Shown here: positions 7,544 through 16,649 of the stretch, one piece after another
Layout: every line of letters starts with the position of its first letter
Position numbering within the stretch: position 1 is the first letter of the stretch
Origin: an uncultured Acetobacteraceae bacterium
Lineage (GTDB): Bacteria > Pseudomonadota > Alphaproteobacteria > Acetobacterales > Acetobacteraceae
Direction of reading: 5' to 3'
Length of the DNA: 64,000 nt
Assembly: GCA_903918315.1 (NCBI GenBank)
Contig: CAIXEA010000074.1
Span: 1 to 64,000, forward strand
Program-made: the position numbers and the translations under genes
Notes under the pieces: generated by a model
What the model saw: the letters and a program-made list of their open reading frames with translations, nothing else
Told to the model about the DNA's origin: nothing
The model's database searches: none

Positions 7544-8215
7544 TTAAATGGCCCGGCGATAGGCGATGGCCGAACCATCGCGGCCGGTGGTGCGGAGCGC
7601 AACCCAGCTGTGCGCCTCATCGTACCAGTCATCCAGCGCCACGTCGCCGGTCAGCGAATAGCGGCGGGCCCGGATGGCGCGACCGTCTGCCAAAGACACC
7701 GACTCCTCCCCATGCTCAAGCACCTGGGGGCGGACCTGTTCCCCGGTCTGCGGATTGAACAGGGGGACGGACATACACAAATAATTCCAATGGGTCAGAG
7801 GAATCATGGCCGCCGACATCACGACGCGCTTGCCATTGCCCGTGCGCACGACAACCCCCTCTGGCGTCCGTTCGGCCCGCACATCGTGGATCGTGCCGTC
7901 ATCATTGGTATTGCTTTCCATGCGCTCAAACAGGCCATCGCGCCATTGCTCCCGCACGGTGTGCGTGTATCGGTACAGGGCAATGGGCCCCAAGGTAATG
8001 ACGAGCCGTACGTCGATTGATGCGAGCAGCACGGCACCGTCCCGCGTCAGGTTGATCACGTGCTGACCGATCAGGCTGTCATTGCGGAACACATCGAAGC
8101 GCAGCAGGCCTGGCGGTACCGACGTGACGGCGGCGGGGGCACCCCTTGGCGCCGCCCCAGCGGCCAGGGCGCCGCTCCCGACCATCACACGCCGGCGCGT
8201 CAGTACGGCAATCAT
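7544..8215 (-). CDS. DUF6134-like secreted protein
   Basis: TAT-like signal TRRRVMVGSGALAAGAAPRGAPA; start trimmed to 8215; last gene of the minus-strand amine oxidase/DUF1365/CFA unit. Confidence 0.6.
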   Translation of the reverse strand: MIAVLTRRRVMVGSGALAAGAAPRGAPAAVTSVPPGLLRFDVFRNDSLIGQHVINLTRDGAVLLASIDVRLVITLGPIALYRYTHTVREQWRDGLFERMESNTNDDGTIHDVRAERTPEGVVVRTGNGKRVVMSAAMIPLTHWNYLCMSVPLFNPQTGEQVRPQVLEHGEESVSLADGRAIRARRYSLTGDVALDDWYDEAHSWVALRTTGRDGSAIAYRRAI

Positions 8216-9456
8216 CGCGTGCTCCCCCCCGGTCGGCTGATGCGATACAGGCCGACATCGATGGCACCGGCCCGGAATCCGGCTTCGCAGTAAGCGAGGT
8301 AGTATTCCCATTTGCGCTTGAACGCCGCGTCGAAGCCTGACCGTTCCAGACGCGGCCAGGCGTGCTGGAAGCGGCGGCCCCATTCCGCCAGCGTCCGGGC
8401 GTAGCTGTCGCCGAAGGTGCGCACGCCCTCCAGCACCAGTCCGGCCGCGGCAACCTGGGCGCGCATCACGCTGTCGGAGGGCAGCATGCCGCCGGGGAAA
8501 ATATGGCGCTGGATGAAATCGGCGCCGCGTTCGTATGACGCGTAGCGATCTTCCGCCATCAGGATGACCTGCAAGGCGGCGATTCCCCCGGGGCGAAGCC
8601 GATCGTGGATGGTGGCAAAATAGTCCGACCAGTATTCGCGCCCGACCGCCTCCAGCATCTCGACGGAGACGATGCGGTCATACTGCCCCGCTGTGTCGCG
8701 ATAATCCTGTAACCGCAGTTCCACGGAACCCGGCGCACAACCATCGGCCAGGCGGTTGCCGGCCCCGTGCAACTGTGCGTGGGACAAGGTCAGCCCCACC
8801 ACGGCGCAACCACGCTCGCGGGCCAGCCGCTCCGCCAATCCGCCCCAGCCGCAGCCAATTTCCAACACGCGTTCCCCGCCAGACAGGGCCAGGGCGTCGA
8901 TCACCATGTCCTGCTTGGCGGCCTGCGCGTCCTCCAGCTTTTGCGTGGGATGGGTATAGAGCGCGGACGAATAGCTCATGCCCGCATCCAGCCAGGACGC
9001 GTAGAAATCATTGCCGAGATCATAATGCGCCGGGATGTTGCGCCGGCTCCCGGCGCGGCTGTTGCGGCGAAGCGCGTGCCGCAGCCGGTTCGCCCAGCGC
9101 GCCACGCGGGAGCCGTTGAGTGAGGCATCCATGCGTTCATAGTTACACGCCACCAACTCGATCAGGGCCGTCAGGCCCGGCGTGGACCAATCCCCGGCCA
9201 TGTAGGATTCAGCGAAGCCAATATCGCCGGCCACCAAAAGCCGTCGGACCGCGTGCCAGCGATGCAGCACCAGCACGCCGCTGGGGCCCGGATGCGGACC
9301 GGCGTGTTGGATCGCCTCGCCGCCCGGCGTGTGGATGAGCAGCTGCCCGTGCGTCACCTGCCGCGCCAGCCGCTCCAGAAACCGGCGGGACAGCGAGAGG
9401 CGAAACCAGGAAACGCGGATGCCGCCCGCGGGCAGGGTGTTGACGGGCTGGCTCAC
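8212..9456 (-). CDS. Cyclopropane-fatty-acyl-phospholipid synthase family SAM methyltransferase
   Basis: AHYDLGNDFYASWLDAGMSYSSALY, VLEIGCGWGGLAERLAR, FIQRHIFPGGMLPS. Start inferred as GTG at 9456 overlapping the TGA of the upstream gene. Confidence 0.9.
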   Translation of the reverse strand: MSQPVNTLPAGGIRVSWFRLSLSRRFLERLARQVTHGQLLIHTPGGEAIQHAGPHPGPSGVLVLHRWHAVRRLLVAGDIGFAESYMAGDWSTPGLTALIELVACNYERMDASLNGSRVARWANRLRHALRRNSRAGSRRNIPAHYDLGNDFYASWLDAGMSYSSALYTHPTQKLEDAQAAKQDMVIDALALSGGERVLEIGCGWGGLAERLARERGCAVVGLTLSHAQLHGAGNRLADGCAPGSVELRLQDYRDTAGQYDRIVSVEMLEAVGREYWSDYFATIHDRLRPGGIAALQVILMAEDRYASYERGADFIQRHIFPGGMLPSDSVMRAQVAAAGLVLEGVRTFGDSYARTLAEWGRRFQHAWPRLERSGFDAAFKRKWEYYLAYCEAGFRAGAIDVGLYRISRPGGSTR

Positions 9457-10256
9457 GCGATGGGTGCCTCCGACAGCGTTACGGGTGCGACAATGCTGAC
9501 GAGATGGTTCGGTGGCGCTGGTTTGCGATGGAATCGCATGCCTTTGCGCCATAGCCGCAGCGCCTCCCAATGGATTCCGACAATCACTGTCAGTGTCAGC
9601 AGCGGCGTACGCAGGAAGGCGCCGAGCAGCGCCGCATCCGTCAGGTCGCGCCGATCGGCTGCCAGCGCCGCGACGATGATGGGGCCGTCGGCGTCGGTGC
9701 CACGGATCACGATGCTCAATGCGGTGTCCGGCGCCCGGACGCGGAATTCGTAGCGCATGTCCATCGCCAGGAAGGGTGAGACATGGAATGCCTTGGCGCA
9801 ATCCTGGCGAATGGCGGTGGGTTCGTCCGGGTGAGCCACCGGGATCAGGTAAGTGTGGCGCTCACCGAAGGTGTTGTGCACCTGGTGCAGCAGCGCCAGC
9901 AGCCGCCCGTCGCGGTGGTAACAGAAATACACGCTCAGCGGATTGAAGCCGAAGCCGAGTATGCGTGGCATCGCCAGCAGGCGGATTGCGCCGCCTTCCA
10001 GGTCTATCCCGGCCGTCGCCAGCGATCCTTCCACCCAGCCGCGCAGCGGGGCTCCGGAACCGTCGGCATGGTCGCGCTCATCAAAGCCGAACACATTGAA
10101 GCGCCGGTGGGAGAACAGGCGCAACCGCGCGGCCAGGGCGGGAATCTCGTCCAGGTCCAGCAGGACGGAGAAGACGCGATATCGCAACCGATGGGGCTTC
10201 GGACGCAGCCGCCGGTGCGTTACGGCGCCAACATACAGGGCGGAGGCGATGCTCAT
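9453..10256 (-). CDS. DUF1365 domain-containing protein
   Basis: GAVTHRRLRPKPHRLRYRVFSVLLDLDEIP, LGFGFNPLSVYFCYHRDGRLLALLHQVHNTFGERHTYL. Confidence 0.9.
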   Translation of the reverse strand: MSIASALYVGAVTHRRLRPKPHRLRYRVFSVLLDLDEIPALAARLRLFSHRRFNVFGFDERDHADGSGAPLRGWVEGSLATAGIDLEGGAIRLLAMPRILGFGFNPLSVYFCYHRDGRLLALLHQVHNTFGERHTYLIPVAHPDEPTAIRQDCAKAFHVSPFLAMDMRYEFRVRAPDTALSIVIRGTDADGPIIVAALAADRRDLTDAALLGAFLRTPLLTLTVIVGIHWEALRLWRKGMRFHRKPAPPNHLVSIVAPVTLSEAPIA

Positions 10257-11623
10257 ACGCCGGCCGTCAACGCCACGCCACTGGGTTCGACCGGGCCAAG
10301 ATGGATGCGGCCGGATTCATTCGCCACCTGCCAGGGTCGCCGCACGCCGCCCAACTGCTCCGCCACCGCCAGCCCGGCCTGCAACCCATCCTCATGGAAC
10401 CCGGCGCCGAAATGCGCGCCGCAGAACCATACGCCACCCTGATCCTGTAAACCCCATAGCCGGCGCTGGGCACGGATGGCGGCGGCATCGAAGACCGGGT
10501 GTTCGTAGGACTCGCTACGCAGAAGACTGCCAGGGCGCGGCGCGTGCGGCGGATTCAGGGTGACAAAATAATCGGTCGCGCCCGGCAGGCCCTGCAGCCG
10601 GTTCATCCAATAGGATACGCAGGGCAACGCGGCCTCCGCGCCAGAGCGCCCGAGATAGTTCCAGCTTGCCCAAACTGCGCGGCGGTGCGGCATCAGCGTC
10701 TTGTCCGTATGCAGCACCGCCATGTTGCGGGTGTAGCGAAAGGCGCCCAGCACATCGCGCTCCCGCGGCGTCGCTTCGCCCCCCAGCAGGGCCAGCGCCT
10801 GGTCGGCATGGCATGCCAGCACGACATCGTCATACACATGCGCGCCCCCCTGGCTCCGCACCCTGACCCCCTCCTCCAATCGTTCCACCGCCAACGCCGA
10901 GCGGCCGGTGCGGATGCGGCTGGCAAAGCCTTCCGTCAGCTTTGCCAGGTATTCGCGGGAGCCGCCGATAACCGTTCGCCAGGCCGGGCGATCGGCTACC
11001 TGCAGCAAGCCATGATTGTCGCAGAAGCGAATGAAGGCGGCGGCCGGATGCAGCCGGGCATCCGCGGCCGGGCAGGACCAGATGGCGGCGGACATCGGCA
11101 GCAGATGATCCTCCTGCAACGCCGCACCGTAGCCACCCTCTCGCAGATAGTCGTCCAGGCTGCCCAGTTCCTGTTCCAGCCGCGCCAGATCGCGCGGCGC
11201 GGCGCGGTAGAAGCGCAGCAGGTCACGCAGCATGCCCCAGAAGCGCGGACGCAGCAGGTTGCGCGGCTGGGCGAACAGCCCGCGCAAATCGGTGCCGGCA
11301 TATTCCAGCCGGCCCTCGTCGATGGAGACGGCGAAGGACATATCCGATTGCCGCGTTGCGACGCCGAGGTGGCGGAACAGGGCCGTCAGATTTGGATAGG
11401 TGCGTTCGTTGTAGACGATGAAGCCGGTATCCACCGCCAGCAGCCCATCGGGCGTGGCCACGGAGGCGGTGTTCGCATGCCCGCCCACGCGGTCCAGCGC
11501 CTCATAGACCGTCACCCGATGGCGTCCGGACAACAGCCAGGCGCAGGCCAGGCCCGCGATCCCCGTGCCAATCACCGCGACGTCGCGCGGTGACCGCTTC
11601 TCGTGCGTCCCGATGGTCCGCAT
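10253..11623 (-). CDS. FAD-dependent amine oxidase family protein
   Basis: VAVIGTGIAGLACAWLLSGRHRVTVYEALDRVGGHANT dinucleotide-binding motif; start trimmed to ATG at 11623. Confidence 0.9.
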   Translation of the reverse strand: MRTIGTHEKRSPRDVAVIGTGIAGLACAWLLSGRHRVTVYEALDRVGGHANTASVATPDGLLAVDTGFIVYNERTYPNLTALFRHLGVATRQSDMSFAVSIDEGRLEYAGTDLRGLFAQPRNLLRPRFWGMLRDLLRFYRAAPRDLARLEQELGSLDDYLREGGYGAALQEDHLLPMSAAIWSCPAADARLHPAAAFIRFCDNHGLLQVADRPAWRTVIGGSREYLAKLTEGFASRIRTGRSALAVERLEEGVRVRSQGGAHVYDDVVLACHADQALALLGGEATPRERDVLGAFRYTRNMAVLHTDKTLMPHRRAVWASWNYLGRSGAEAALPCVSYWMNRLQGLPGATDYFVTLNPPHAPRPGSLLRSESYEHPVFDAAAIRAQRRLWGLQDQGGVWFCGAHFGAGFHEDGLQAGLAVAEQLGGVRRPWQVANESGRIHLGPVEPSGVALTAGV

Positions 11624-11700: not shown

Positions 11701-11730
11701 CCTTTACGCAGCAGGCACGCGATCGGATCA
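11701..11730 (-). promoter_or_regulatory. Putative sigma-E/ChrR-type promoter for the amine oxidase-DUF1365-CFA-DUF6134 unit
   Basis: Minus strand: TGATCC (11730-11725), 18-nt spacer, TAAAGG (11706-11701). Confidence 0.75.
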
Positions 11731-11755
11731 CCTGTCGCCAATGACGCGCGCCGGG

Positions 11756-11785
11756 TGATCCAATGCGCGCCCGGCCACGTAAAGG
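11756..11785 (+). promoter_or_regulatory. Putative autoregulatory sigma-E/ChrR-type promoter for the rpoE-chrR unit
   Basis: Plus strand: TGATCC (11756-11761), 18-nt spacer, TAAAGG (11780-11785). Confidence 0.75.
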
Positions 11786-11791
11786 AAATCG

Positions 11792-12472
11792 ATGAATGCA
11801 AAGCCCGATCACGCGAGCGAACCACCGGCGACATGGACGAGAGCGGATGAACCGTCTTCGCGCATGACCAGCGATGCCGCGCCGATCCAGGATACGGACT
11901 TGTTGCTGGCCATCGCGGTCAGGCGCGACCGACAGGCATTTTGTGTGCTGTTCGCGCGCTTCGCACCGCGCCTGAAATCCTGGTTGATGCGCGCCGGCAC
12001 CCCGGCGGACCGGGCGGAGGACCTGGCGCAAGAAACCATGCTGGCGGTTTGGCGGCGGGCTGAGAGCTTCGATCCCACCCGCGCGGGCGTCGCGAACTGG
12101 ATATTTACGATCGCCAGGAACCAGCGGATCGATGCCTTTCGCCGCCTCTCTCGCCCTGAGCCGGATGCCGATGACCCGTCCTTGGCGCCATCCCAGCCTC
12201 TCCCGCCGGACGCCGCCTTTGAAATGGCGGAGGACGAGACCCTGATCCGCGCGGCGCTTGCGACCTTGCCCGCCGAACAGGCGGAGGTCATTCGCCTCGC
12301 GTTTTTCGAGGACCGTCGACACGCGGAGATCGAGCGGACCCTGGGCATCCCCCTCGGCACCGTGAAATCACGCCTGCGCCTCGCCATGAGTCGCCTTCGC
12401 GCCCGATTGGCGGAACCCCAACCCGAGGGAGGCCAAACGCAAAGAGGCCAACCCAAAGGAAGCCAAACATGA
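11792..12472 (+). CDS. rpoE: ECF RNA polymerase sigma factor (RpoE/ChrR-partner type)
   Basis: Sigma-2 AEDLAQETMLAVWRRAESFDPTRAGVANWIFTIARNQRIDAFRR; sigma-4 LPAEQAEVIRLAFFEDRRHAEIERTLGIPLGTVKSRLRLAMSRLR; followed by chrR. Start uncertain (see findings). Confidence 0.9.
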   Translation: MNAKPDHASEPPATWTRADEPSSRMTSDAAPIQDTDLLLAIAVRRDRQAFCVLFARFAPRLKSWLMRAGTPADRAEDLAQETMLAVWRRAESFDPTRAGVANWIFTIARNQRIDAFRRLSRPEPDADDPSLAPSQPLPPDAAFEMAEDETLIRAALATLPAEQAEVIRLAFFEDRRHAEIERTLGIPLGTVKSRLRLAMSRLRARLAEPQPEGGQTQRGQPKGSQT

Positions 12473-13137
12473 CCCCTTCCCCCACCCACCATCCAGCCGA
12501 TGACACACTGCTGCGCCATGCCGCCGGGCGCCTGTCCGCTGGCGCGACGCTGGTCGTCGCCACGCATCTCGCCGGCTGCCCGCATTGCCAACTGGCAGCC
12601 CGGCTCGGGGAGGCCATCGGCGGTGTCCTGCTGGCCGATACCGCCCCCGCCGCCATGGCCACGGACGCTCTGGACCGCACCCTGGCCCGGCTGGACACCC
12701 CGGCCAGTATTGCCCGACCGCCCGCCAACGCGACGGACCCGGTGCCGGACCTGGCGCCGGGCGTGCCAATGCCCGCCCCGCTGCGTCATGTCGCACGCCG
12801 CCCCTGGCGCTGGGTGGCGCCGGGCATCAGCCGCATTCGGCTGGACCTTGCCGGCGCGGCGCCAGGGGAGCACGCCTATCTGCTGCGCGTCGCCCCCGGC
12901 GCCACCTTGGCGGAGCATGGCCATCGCGGCGAGGAAATCACCTGCGTCTTGTCCGGACAGTTCCGCGACTCCACCGGCTTATACGGCCCAGGAGACGTTG
13001 CCGAAATGGATGTCGGGCAGGACCACCAGCCCATCACCGAGCCCGGCGCGGTCTGCATCTGCCTGATCGCGACCCAGGGCCGCCTGCGCATGCGCGGCAC
13101 GCTGGCCCGCCTGCTGCAACCCCTCGTCGGCGTTTGA
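12469..13137 (+). CDS. chrR: ChrR-family zinc-binding anti-sigma factor with C-terminal cupin domain
   Basis: ATHLAGCPHC (HxxxCxxC) and cupin EHGHRGEEITCVLSGQF; 4-bp overlap with the sigma factor gene. Confidence 0.9.
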   Translation: MTPSPTHHPADDTLLRHAAGRLSAGATLVVATHLAGCPHCQLAARLGEAIGGVLLADTAPAAMATDALDRTLARLDTPASIARPPANATDPVPDLAPGVPMPAPLRHVARRPWRWVAPGISRIRLDLAGAAPGEHAYLLRVAPGATLAEHGHRGEEITCVLSGQFRDSTGLYGPGDVAEMDVGQDHQPITEPGAVCICLIATQGRLRMRGTLARLLQPLVGV

Positions 13138-13940
13138 TGATCCGCCTGATCCTGCCGCTTGCCGTCTTCCTGGCCGCCGCCATGGCGCTGGCCTGGGCCT
13201 GGCAGAAGCGCGCCAACAATGCCGGCTGGGTGGATGTCTTCTGGACCTTCGCGATCGGAGCCGCCGCGCTGATCGGCGCGCTGTGGCCTCTGGCCGGCGA
13301 TTCGGCGCAGCCAGCCCGCCAGTGCCTGGTCGCGGCGCTGGTCGCGCTCTGGTCACTGCGCCTCGGTTTGCATCTGCGCACCCGTGTTCGCACCCGGCCG
13401 GAGGATGCGCGCTACGCTGGATTTCGGCGTGACTGGGGCGCCCGCTTCCAGGTGCGACTGTTCTGGTTCCTGCAAATCCAGGCCTTTGCCGCCCTGCCGC
13501 TGGCGTTGGCGATGCTGCTTGCGGCCCGTACGCCGGCCCCATTTCCCCGGCTTGCGGATATCATCGCCCTGGCGTTGATCGCGATAGCCCTGGCAGGCAC
13601 TGCCCAGGCCGATCGGCAGCTCGCCCGCTTCGTCGCCCGCCCCGCCAATGCCGGCAAGGTCTGCGACCAGGGATTGTGGGCCTGGTCACGCCATCCGAAT
13701 TACTTCTTTGAATTCCTCGGATGGTGCGCCTGGCCGGTCTTTGCCCTTGATCCCGCCTGGGCGCCCGGCTGGGTTACGCTCGCCGCGCCAGCCCTGATGT
13801 ACTGGCTGCTGGTGCATGTCTCGGGCATTCCACCGTTAGAGCGCGTCATGCTCGCATCGCGTGGCGAGGCCTATCGCGCCTATCAGGCCCGTACCAGTGC
13901 CTTCTTCCCTTTACCGCCCCGCGTCGAGGATCCCGCATGA
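13137..13940 (+). CDS. DUF1295 membrane protein (steroid 5-alpha-reductase/isoprenylcysteine methyltransferase-like)
   Basis: GLWAWSRHPNYFFEFLGWCAWPVFAL; multi-TM; ATG overlaps the chrR stop. Confidence 0.85.
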   Translation: MIRLILPLAVFLAAAMALAWAWQKRANNAGWVDVFWTFAIGAAALIGALWPLAGDSAQPARQCLVAALVALWSLRLGLHLRTRVRTRPEDARYAGFRRDWGARFQVRLFWFLQIQAFAALPLALAMLLAARTPAPFPRLADIIALALIAIALAGTAQADRQLARFVARPANAGKVCDQGLWAWSRHPNYFFEFLGWCAWPVFALDPAWAPGWVTLAAPALMYWLLVHVSGIPPLERVMLASRGEAYRAYQARTSAFFPLPPRVEDPA

Positions 13941-14965
13941 GCCTGATCTCCACCAGCACCGGCCTGGTCGAGCGCCTGCCGATGCCCGACGCCCTCACAC
14001 GGTTTGGCATCGCCCAGCTTGTTGCCCGCACCCATCGCCGCATGGCAACGGCACAAGGCGATATCGACACCGCATTCGCCGCCGCCATGATCACGCACCC
14101 GATCGCAGAGCATACGGCTGATGCCAATGCGCAGCATTACGAGCTGCCCGAGGCGTTCTTCGGCCTCATCCTCGGCCCGCATCGCAAATATTCCAGCTGC
14201 CTCTACCGCACCGCCGAGGAGACGCTGGCCCAGGCCGAGGCCAACGCGCTGGAGGAGACCTGCGCGCATGCGGATGTGCAGGACAAGCAAGACATCCTGG
14301 AACTCGGTTGTGGTTGGGGTTCACTCTCCCTGTGGATGGCGGAGCATTATCCGCTTGCCCGTGTCACCGCCGTGTCCAACTCCCATTCCCAGCGTCTCTA
14401 CATCGAGGCCGCGGCACAGGCGCGCGGGCTCCACAATCTGCGGGTCATCACCGCTGACATGAACGATTTCGACCCGGGCGCGCGCTTTGACCGCATCGTC
14501 TCGGTGGAGATGTTCGAACACATGGCGAACTGGAACGCGCTGCTGACCCGCGCGCGGACCTGGCTGCGCCCGGACGGGCGGCTGTTCCTGCATGTATTCA
14601 CCCATGTGTCCGCGCCTTATCGGTTCGACACGGCCGACCCCGCGGACTGGATTGCCCGGCATTTCTTCACCGGCGGCATCATGCCGAGCCACAGTCTGAT
14701 CCGCAGCTTTCCGCATCTGTTCGAGGTGGAGCACGACTGGCGCTGGGACGGTCGGCAATACCAACGCACCGCGCGCGATTGGCTGGCGCGATACGATGCC
14801 AATATTAAACGGATCGATGACCTACTGGGCGGTGTGTACGGGACGCAGGCACCCCTTTGGCGCCGCCGCTGGCGCTTGTTCTTCCTGGCTGTCGAGGGAT
14901 TGTTCGGTCATGACGATGGGCGTGCCTGGGGGGTTTCCCACTACCGCCTGAAACCCGTCCTCTGA
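13937..14965 (+). CDS. Second cyclopropane-fatty-acid-synthase-like SAM methyltransferase
   Basis: HYELPEAFFGLILGPHRKYSSCLY, ILELGCGWGSLSLWMAEHYP, RHFFTGGIMPS; 4-bp overlap with upstream gene. Confidence 0.85.
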   Translation: MSLISTSTGLVERLPMPDALTRFGIAQLVARTHRRMATAQGDIDTAFAAAMITHPIAEHTADANAQHYELPEAFFGLILGPHRKYSSCLYRTAEETLAQAEANALEETCAHADVQDKQDILELGCGWGSLSLWMAEHYPLARVTAVSNSHSQRLYIEAAAQARGLHNLRVITADMNDFDPGARFDRIVSVEMFEHMANWNALLTRARTWLRPDGRLFLHVFTHVSAPYRFDTADPADWIARHFFTGGIMPSHSLIRSFPHLFEVEHDWRWDGRQYQRTARDWLARYDANIKRIDDLLGGVYGTQAPLWRRRWRLFFLAVEGLFGHDDGRAWGVSHYRLKPVL

Positions 14966-14967
14966 GC

Positions 14968-15573
14968 ATGCCCCTGCTCGCCGCCCTGCGCCGGTATATG
15001 GCGGCGGAGGATCCGGTGGTGGCCACCGCCAACCTGATCGCGATGGTGTTGGCGTGGAATACGCCGTTCTACCCGCTTTACGTGCTAGGCACCGCGGGCG
15101 CGGCGATGCATCCGGGGGCGTGGTTCACACTCCTCTCATTTCCTGTGTTTCTTGTGGTCCCGGCTGTCACCCGCCGCTTTTCGCTGGCCGGACGCGCGCT
15201 GCTCGCGGCGGCAGGCATCGCCAACACCGTCTATTGTACATGGCTGCTGGGAGAGGCGGCGGGAACACAACTGTTTCTGCTTCCCTGCATCGCACTGGCC
15301 CCCCTGCTATTCCGCCGGGCGGAGGGCCTGGCGTTGCTCACGTTCCTGTTCCTGCCGTTGTTCATTGGACTGGGTCTTCATGGGCGCTATCCCGCGTCGC
15401 CGTTCGGATGTGACGGCGAAACCTGCGCTGCGCTGCACTGGTTGAATGTCATCAGTGTAATCTGTCTGCTGGGTTTTCTTGGCCTGCTCGGTTTGCGCCG
15501 TATCATCCCGCCGACAACCCCGCCAGGCACCGCCGCTGCATCCACGCGCCAGCCGTCGCCGCCAATCCAGTAA
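14968..15573 (+). CDS. Hypothetical multi-pass membrane protein
   Basis: 201 aa with several predicted TM segments, 2 nt after the CFA-like gene. Confidence 0.65.
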   Translation: MPLLAALRRYMAAEDPVVATANLIAMVLAWNTPFYPLYVLGTAGAAMHPGAWFTLLSFPVFLVVPAVTRRFSLAGRALLAAAGIANTVYCTWLLGEAAGTQLFLLPCIALAPLLFRRAEGLALLTFLFLPLFIGLGLHGRYPASPFGCDGETCAALHWLNVISVICLLGFLGLLGLRRIIPPTTPPGTAAASTRQPSPPIQ

Positions 15574-15922
15574 CGACACCGCCCCAGGCCATATCGACCA
15601 GCGTCAACGGCCAGGTCCAAAACTTCATAACCGCCTGGCTCGTCAGATCGTATGTGCCATAGGTGCACAGACCGAACACCGCACCATACAGAAATGCGCT
15701 CAAGATGCCGCCACGCTGGTGCGCCACTGGCAAAACCAGCACCATGATGCCTGTGATATGCAGTAAATAGAACAACAGGGCGGGTGCGACGCGAAACCGC
15801 TCCGCCAGCAGCGGCCCGACCGTGGTCGCGTAGAGCGGCCCACCCACAAAGGCGAGCCACATCGCATCCAGAGCCAGAAACACCAGCAGCGTCACCCCAT
15901 AGACGCGCAGCCAGGCGGTCAT
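15503..15922 (-). CDS. DUF2177 family membrane protein
   Basis: [60 protein letters not shown]; start overlaps the folE stop. Confidence 0.85.
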
Positions 15923-16536
15923 CGCGCGCCGACCATGGCTAGCAATTCGCGTCGCGTTTCGGCGTTGTCTCGAAAGCTGCCCAACATGCGGCTGGTCACC
16001 ATGGTAACGCCCGGCTGGTGAACACCGCGCGTGGTCATGCATTGATGCGCTGCCTCGATGATCACCGCGACGCCCTTGGGCTGCAAAACCGACTGGATGG
16101 TATTGGCGATCTGTGCCGTCAGTTTCTCCTGAATCTGGAGCCGCTTGGCATAGGCTGCCACGACGCGGGCCAGCTTGGATATGCCGACCACGCGCCGGTG
16201 TGGCAGATAGGCGACATGGGCGCGGCCGATGATGGGCACCATGTGGTGTTCACAATGGCTCTCCAGGCGAATATCGCGCAGCAGCACGATCTCATCGTAG
16301 CCGTCGGTTTCCTCAAACGTGCGCTCCAGTAGAGCGATGGGGTCCACCTCATATCCTGCGAAAAATTCCTCATAGGCGCGGGCCACACGCGCGGGCGTGT
16401 CGATCAGGCCCTCGCGCGTGGGATCATCTCCGGCCCACTGTATCAGGGTCCGAATGGCTGTTTCCGCTTCCTCCCGGTCAGGGCGTGAATCGGAGGGAGG
16501 GTTGCGGGGTCCGCCAACCGGGGTCATCGAATTCAA
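15919..16536 (-). CDS. folE: GTP cyclohydrolase I
   Basis: [39 protein letters not shown] and [18 protein letters not shown] are diagnostic. Confidence 0.95.
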
Positions 16537-16619: not shown

Positions 16620-16649
16620 CCTTTACGAAGCCCGGGTCGCTCTGGATCA
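16620..16649 (-). promoter_or_regulatory. Putative sigma-E/ChrR-type promoter for the folE-DUF2177 unit
   Basis: Minus strand: TGATCC (16649-16644), 18-nt spacer, TAAAGG (16625-16620); same hexamers and spacing as the two sites at 11.7 kb. Confidence 0.65.

Follow-up and report, generated by a model that had tools for sequence, protein, structure and literature searches.

Candidate back-to-back ECF11-type promoters between a sigma factor-ChrR operon and a predicted furan fatty acid operon in an uncultured Acetobacteraceae bacterium

Gene content of the divergent operons and the folE unit

In the current study, we have analysed a stretch of 64,000 nucleotides (hereafter the window) of the uncultured Acetobacteraceae assembly GCA_903918315.1 (~5.04 Mb), in which two operons diverge from a common intergenic region. 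The leftward operon, on the minus strand, starts with a gene for an amine-oxidase-family flavoprotein (10253-11623; PF01593), assigned as UfaD/RSP_1091-like from the literature context, and an AGGAG precedes its ATG at 11623. It is followed by a DUF1365 protein (9453-10256; PF07103), UfaO/RSP_1090-like by family and gene order, a UfaM-like methyltransferase of the CMAS type (8212-9408, provisional start; PF02353, 265 bits) and, as the last gene, a DUF6134 protein (7544-8272, provisional start; PF19630). Genes of PF01593, PF07103 and PF02353 are found on the same strand within one operon. The UfaD-UfaO-UfaM set makes furan fatty acids in Rhodobacter sphaeroides and Rhodopseudomonas palustris (PMC7380195), and, judged by family and context, the leftward operon would match this set, with furan fatty acid synthesis as its predicted function. 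Such a membrane-lipid operon is thought to protect against reactive oxygen made by light.

The rightward operon, on the plus strand, begins with the gene of an RpoE-like ECF sigma factor of the ECF11 type (11792-12472), identified with Pfam/NCBIfam models and by its closest match among solved structures, the RpoE of R. sphaeroides (2q1z_A, E 6e-43; runner-up 3e-19). Two conserved candidate starts are present in this gene, ATG 11792 and ATG 11864 (Met25), the latter methionine being kept in five compared sequences. The next gene, which overlaps the stop of the sigma gene, encodes a ChrR anti-sigma factor with a zinc-finger-like N-terminus and a cupin-like C-terminus (12469-13137; PF12973), matching TIGR02451 with 186.6 bits (cut-off 124.5) and the solved structure 2z2s_B with an E of 3e-33; it is the single full-length ChrR of the genome. 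Glu147 and His177 of R. sphaeroides ChrR, which are required for its response (PMC6852236), align with Glu156 and His186 of the window protein, so both are kept. The operon continues with a DUF1295 protein, whose gene overlaps the chrR stop (13137-13940; PF06966), a second CMAS-type methyltransferase (13937-14965; PF02353) that is 28% identical to the UfaM-type protein of the window, and an unannotated protein as its last gene (14968-15573), with only a sub-threshold match to MASE7. From sequence comparison, the second methyltransferase may be FufM-like, i.e., a furan fatty acid methylase.

Further along the window, on the minus strand, lies the second genome copy of folE, encoding GTP cyclohydrolase I (15919-16536; above the TIGR00063 cut-off), with a gene for a DUF2177 membrane protein on its 3' side (15503-15922; PF09945, 127.6 bits). 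The other, housekeeping folE is found on contig C57 of the same genome (G000:C57:5342-5950) and is about 84-85% identical to the window copy. Two folE copies are also present in the ChrR-bearing relatives G422 and G458. A phototrophic host was considered, but the search of the genome for a photosynthetic reaction-centre gene gave no match.

Promoter elements and the position of the -10 box

The initial annotation had described a 168-bp intergenic region holding two divergent TGATCC-N18-TAAAGG promoters with the same hexamers and spacing. This length is correct with ATG 11623 as the start codon of the amine-oxidase gene and ATG 11792 as that of the sigma gene. Both elements were recovered as exact matches in our pattern search of the window, at 11701-11730 on the minus strand and at 11756-11785 on the plus strand. 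The same search returned a third match upstream of folE, at 16620-16649 on the minus strand; this third promoter on the second folE copy, missed by the initial annotation, is new here. Both divergent promoters have an exact TGATCC hexamer as their -35 box, at 11725-11730 (minus strand) in the leftward, lipid operon promoter and at 11756-11761 (plus strand) in the rightward, sigma operon promoter. These boxes are conserved upstream of ufaD orthologues and of sigma orthologues, respectively, and are separated by 25 bp.

The chance expectation for TGATCC-N15-20-TAAAGG in the window is 0.04, while the complete genome of 5,040,268 bases contains only three matches, all of them in the window, and the reversed pattern used as control gave none over the same 5,040,268 bases. 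The identity of the hexamers and of the adjoining AAGG tail at three sites could also point to a copied repeat, the pair then being a duplicated, non-functional stretch or a product of chance. However, the spacers of the divergent pair agree at just 6 of 16 positions, which simple copying of one stretch does not account for, and the pair is conserved in other genera. Together with the low expectation, this makes chance or repeat copying a practically negligible explanation, and we conclude that the sites are real and beyond chance.

All three sites of the window also parse as TGATCC-N16-CGTA-AAGG, and the distribution of these two parsings in relatives bears on where the -10 box is placed. Among 68 distinct stretches upstream of sigma orthologues in other genomes, TGATCC-N16-CGTA was found in 53, whereas a spacer of 15 occurred in 2, and spacers of 13, 14 and 17-19 in none; the 15 stretches without an exact N16 site include the two with N15. 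Upstream of amine-oxidase orthologues, N16 was found in 36 of 55 stretches and other spacings in 0/55. The counts in both sets are not independent events, many of the source genomes being related, and first-order Markov shuffles used as control gave 0 to 0.05 matches per spacing. In a profile of 101 distinct sites, for which the search pattern fixed TGATC and CGTA but left the remaining positions free, the base 3' of TGATCC is a purine in 100 sites and the base 5' of it a G in 74, while the four positions 3' of CGTA carry ~0.1 bit each.

Recognition of TGATCC-N18-TAAAGG by the sigma factor, the -10 then being TAAAGG, would agree with the presence of this hexamer at all three sites of the genome itself and at a few Pseudacidovorax sigma sites. 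Nevertheless, TGATCC-N18-TAAAGG was found in only 5 of the 68 sigma stretches and in none of the 55 amine-oxidase stretches, and these counts, together with the ~0.1 bit after CGTA, rule out TAAAGG as the conserved -10. The published consensus also terminates in CGTA: the RpoE promoter of R. sphaeroides has been reported as TGATCC-N15-GCGTA (PMC5036791) and the RpoE-type promoter of Pseudomonas syringae as TGATCC-N16-CGTA (PMC5507510), two notations that describe an identical spacing. We thus regard recognition through TAAAGG as very unlikely. Since relatives conserve CGTA at spacer 16 and not AAGG, the -10 proposed initially was misphased, being off by two bases and taking in unconserved letters, and the conserved unit is TGATCC-N16-CGTA. 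The likeness of the -35 to the TGATC-type promoter of R. sphaeroides RpoE, on the other hand, was rightly recognised, as the box equals the published RpoE (ECF11) element.

With this correction, the -10 boxes CGTA lie at 11705-11708 (minus strand) for the leftward promoter and at 11778-11781 (plus strand) for the rightward one, each 16 nt from its -35, and the third promoter spans 16624-16649 (minus strand). With ATG 11792 as the start of the sigma gene, the leader would count only a few bases, giving an almost leaderless transcript. An AAGG tail follows CGTA at all three sites of the window (11701-11704, 11782-11785 and 16620-16623) and is not conserved in most relatives; the plus-strand tail may contribute to a ribosome-binding site.

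Distribution of the element in the genome and in relatives

The corrected element also has consequences for the search of further regulon members. The genome scan proposed initially gave three matches when run as TGATCC-N15-20-TAAAGG, although a pattern built on TAAAGG (N17-19) would misdefine the regulon. Besides the three promoters, the genome contains eight exact TGATCC-N16-CGTA sites, six of which have a T right after TGATCC, the position held by a purine in nearly all sites of relatives. One of them, at 11106-11131 (plus strand), is taken as chance on account of this disfavoured T and its position within the coding sequence of the amine-oxidase gene, while a seventh site, on contig C201 and not among these six, lies within a long reading frame. 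The eighth site (G000:C193:8573-8598, plus strand; L021:1501-1526) is found 176 bp upstream of uvrA in the correct orientation. No N16 site was detected upstream of uvrA in 29 relatives, some of them with ChrR, and this site is therefore either lineage-specific or due to chance, leaving uvrA as a weak candidate for the regulon. Sites with one mismatch number 346 in the genome. Photolyase was rejected as a regulon member here, the one PF03441 gene of the genome having no site better than chance.

The back-to-back arrangement extends well beyond this genome. Many relatives, among them Acetobacteraceae, Rhizobiales and others, have kept one site per strand in the region that separates the sigma gene from ufaD. 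Among 385 genomes of the class, 16, the genome of the window included, have two outward-facing sites at most 30 bp apart, and the reversed pattern in the same paired-site search of the 385 genomes gave no match. In 10 of the 15 other genomes with paired sites, sigma/chrR lies on one flank and ufaD on the other.

A similar association with the island was observed for folE. The folE genes of relatives that lie inside the ChrR island carry the promoter site (one as TGATCT), whereas no site was found upstream of the relatives' folE genes outside the island, the one exception being a TGATCT variant in a congeneric genome that bears ChrR. No site was found upstream of the C57 copy either. This distribution is difficult to reconcile with the alternative of functional sites that chiefly serve another ECF sigma factor of the genome: the element tracks the sigma/chrR locus across many genera, it equals the published ECF11 promoter and, that single variant aside, it is missing upstream of folE genes outside the island. 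Use by another sigma factor is accordingly considered extremely unlikely.

The assignment of the sigma factor to ECF11 is based on its closest relative being RpoE, on the adjacent cupin-type ChrR, on the equivalents of Glu147 and His177, and on the promoter with a spacer of 16 at 11756-11781 (plus strand). We propose, with a probability of roughly 0.93, that the pair represents ECF11 (RpoE/sigma-E, ChrR-controlled) promoters of the form TGATCC-N16-CGTA, set back to back and serving the sigma and the furan fatty acid operons, with a third one on folE-DUF2177; this proposal is drawn from the comparison of sequences.

Regulatory model and comparison with known systems

In the model suggested by these promoters, ChrR, encoded right after the sigma gene, would keep the sigma factor inactive until singlet oxygen or an organic hydroperoxide leads to the loss of ChrR, as in its orthologues. 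The freed sigma factor would then activate, to the right, its own operon (sigma, chrR, DUF1295, the second methylase and one further gene) and, to the left, the furan fatty acid operon (UfaD-, UfaO- and UfaM-type genes and DUF6134), while the third promoter, of the same kind, would drive the second folE copy and DUF2177. By analogy with orthologous systems, the furan fatty acids would shield membranes and aid ChrR turnover (PMC6852236). The signal, the turnover of ChrR, furan fatty acid synthesis, the feedback through the lipid genes and transcription from the sites are all predicted here by analogy. Within these bounds, the comparison supports the original proposal of autoregulation and co-activation of the divergent lipid operon by an RpoE/ChrR-type system akin to the singlet-oxygen system of R. 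sphaeroides. Overall, the first reading was correct in outline, with its -10 now corrected, and the finding is an ordinary one.

The arrangement of two neighbouring operons with RpoE promoters is not new and is known in related bacteria, since in R. sphaeroides rpoE-chrR and the lipid operon lie side by side, both carry an RpoE promoter, and a positive loop runs via the lipid genes (PMC3818230). As in the window, the sigma-anti-sigma operon of that species adjoins an operon of the amine-oxidase/DUF1365 type (RSP_1091-1087), with the same promoter type (PMC3818230, PMC5036791). On the other hand, ufaM of R. sphaeroides (RSP_2144) lies elsewhere and its lipid operon has RSP_1089-1087, whereas the operon of the window includes a UfaM-type gene and DUF6134. 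The sigma operon of the window also differs from that of R. sphaeroides in holding DUF1295 and the second methylase, and its host has no reaction-centre gene. The PSPTO_1043 regulon of P. syringae has the promoter consensus TGATCC-N16-CGTA, as in the window, and an autoregulated sigma-chrR operon, and it includes an amine oxidase and cfa (PMC5507510); its lipid genes are grouped with photolyase at a locus of their own, while those of the window are divergent from the sigma gene. UfaD, UfaO and UfaM are together in R. palustris (RPA2571-2569), as in the window, and both have a second, distant CMAS methylase, fufM (RPA0924) being 26% identical to UfaM in R. palustris and the window protein 28% to its UfaM-type counterpart (PMC7380195).

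A GTP cyclohydrolase is not a new function for this regulon, because the folE2 of Rhodobacter is already known to be RpoE-dependent and induced by singlet oxygen (PMC7074977). Unlike this folE2, the gene of the window is a folE (TIGR00063) in the sigma island, and the other copy, on C57, lacks the site. Relative to known systems, the new aspects are the promoter on a folE copy, the host without a reaction centre, and a second methylase in the sigma operon that may be FufM-like.

These results indicate that the wiring of the sigma-E/furan fatty acid circuit is alike in a bacterium that lacks a photosynthetic reaction centre. CGTA at spacer 16 is the promoter definition needed for finding the members of its regulon. 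If 13937-14965 encodes FufM, the dimethyl-furan-fatty-acid pathway would span both divergent operons. We tentatively suggest, as a possibility of somewhat less than even odds, that in this genome most of the direct sigma-E regulon is gathered in a single ~9-kb island. Three like promoters would there serve the sigma pair, a pathway for dimethyl furan fatty acids distributed over the divergent operons (UfaM-UfaD-UfaO to the left, FufM-like to the right) and a duplicated, stress-dedicated folE, the housekeeping folE being outside the regulon. The folE copies inside and outside the island would provide a simple natural test of the purpose that GTP cyclohydrolase serves in the regulon.
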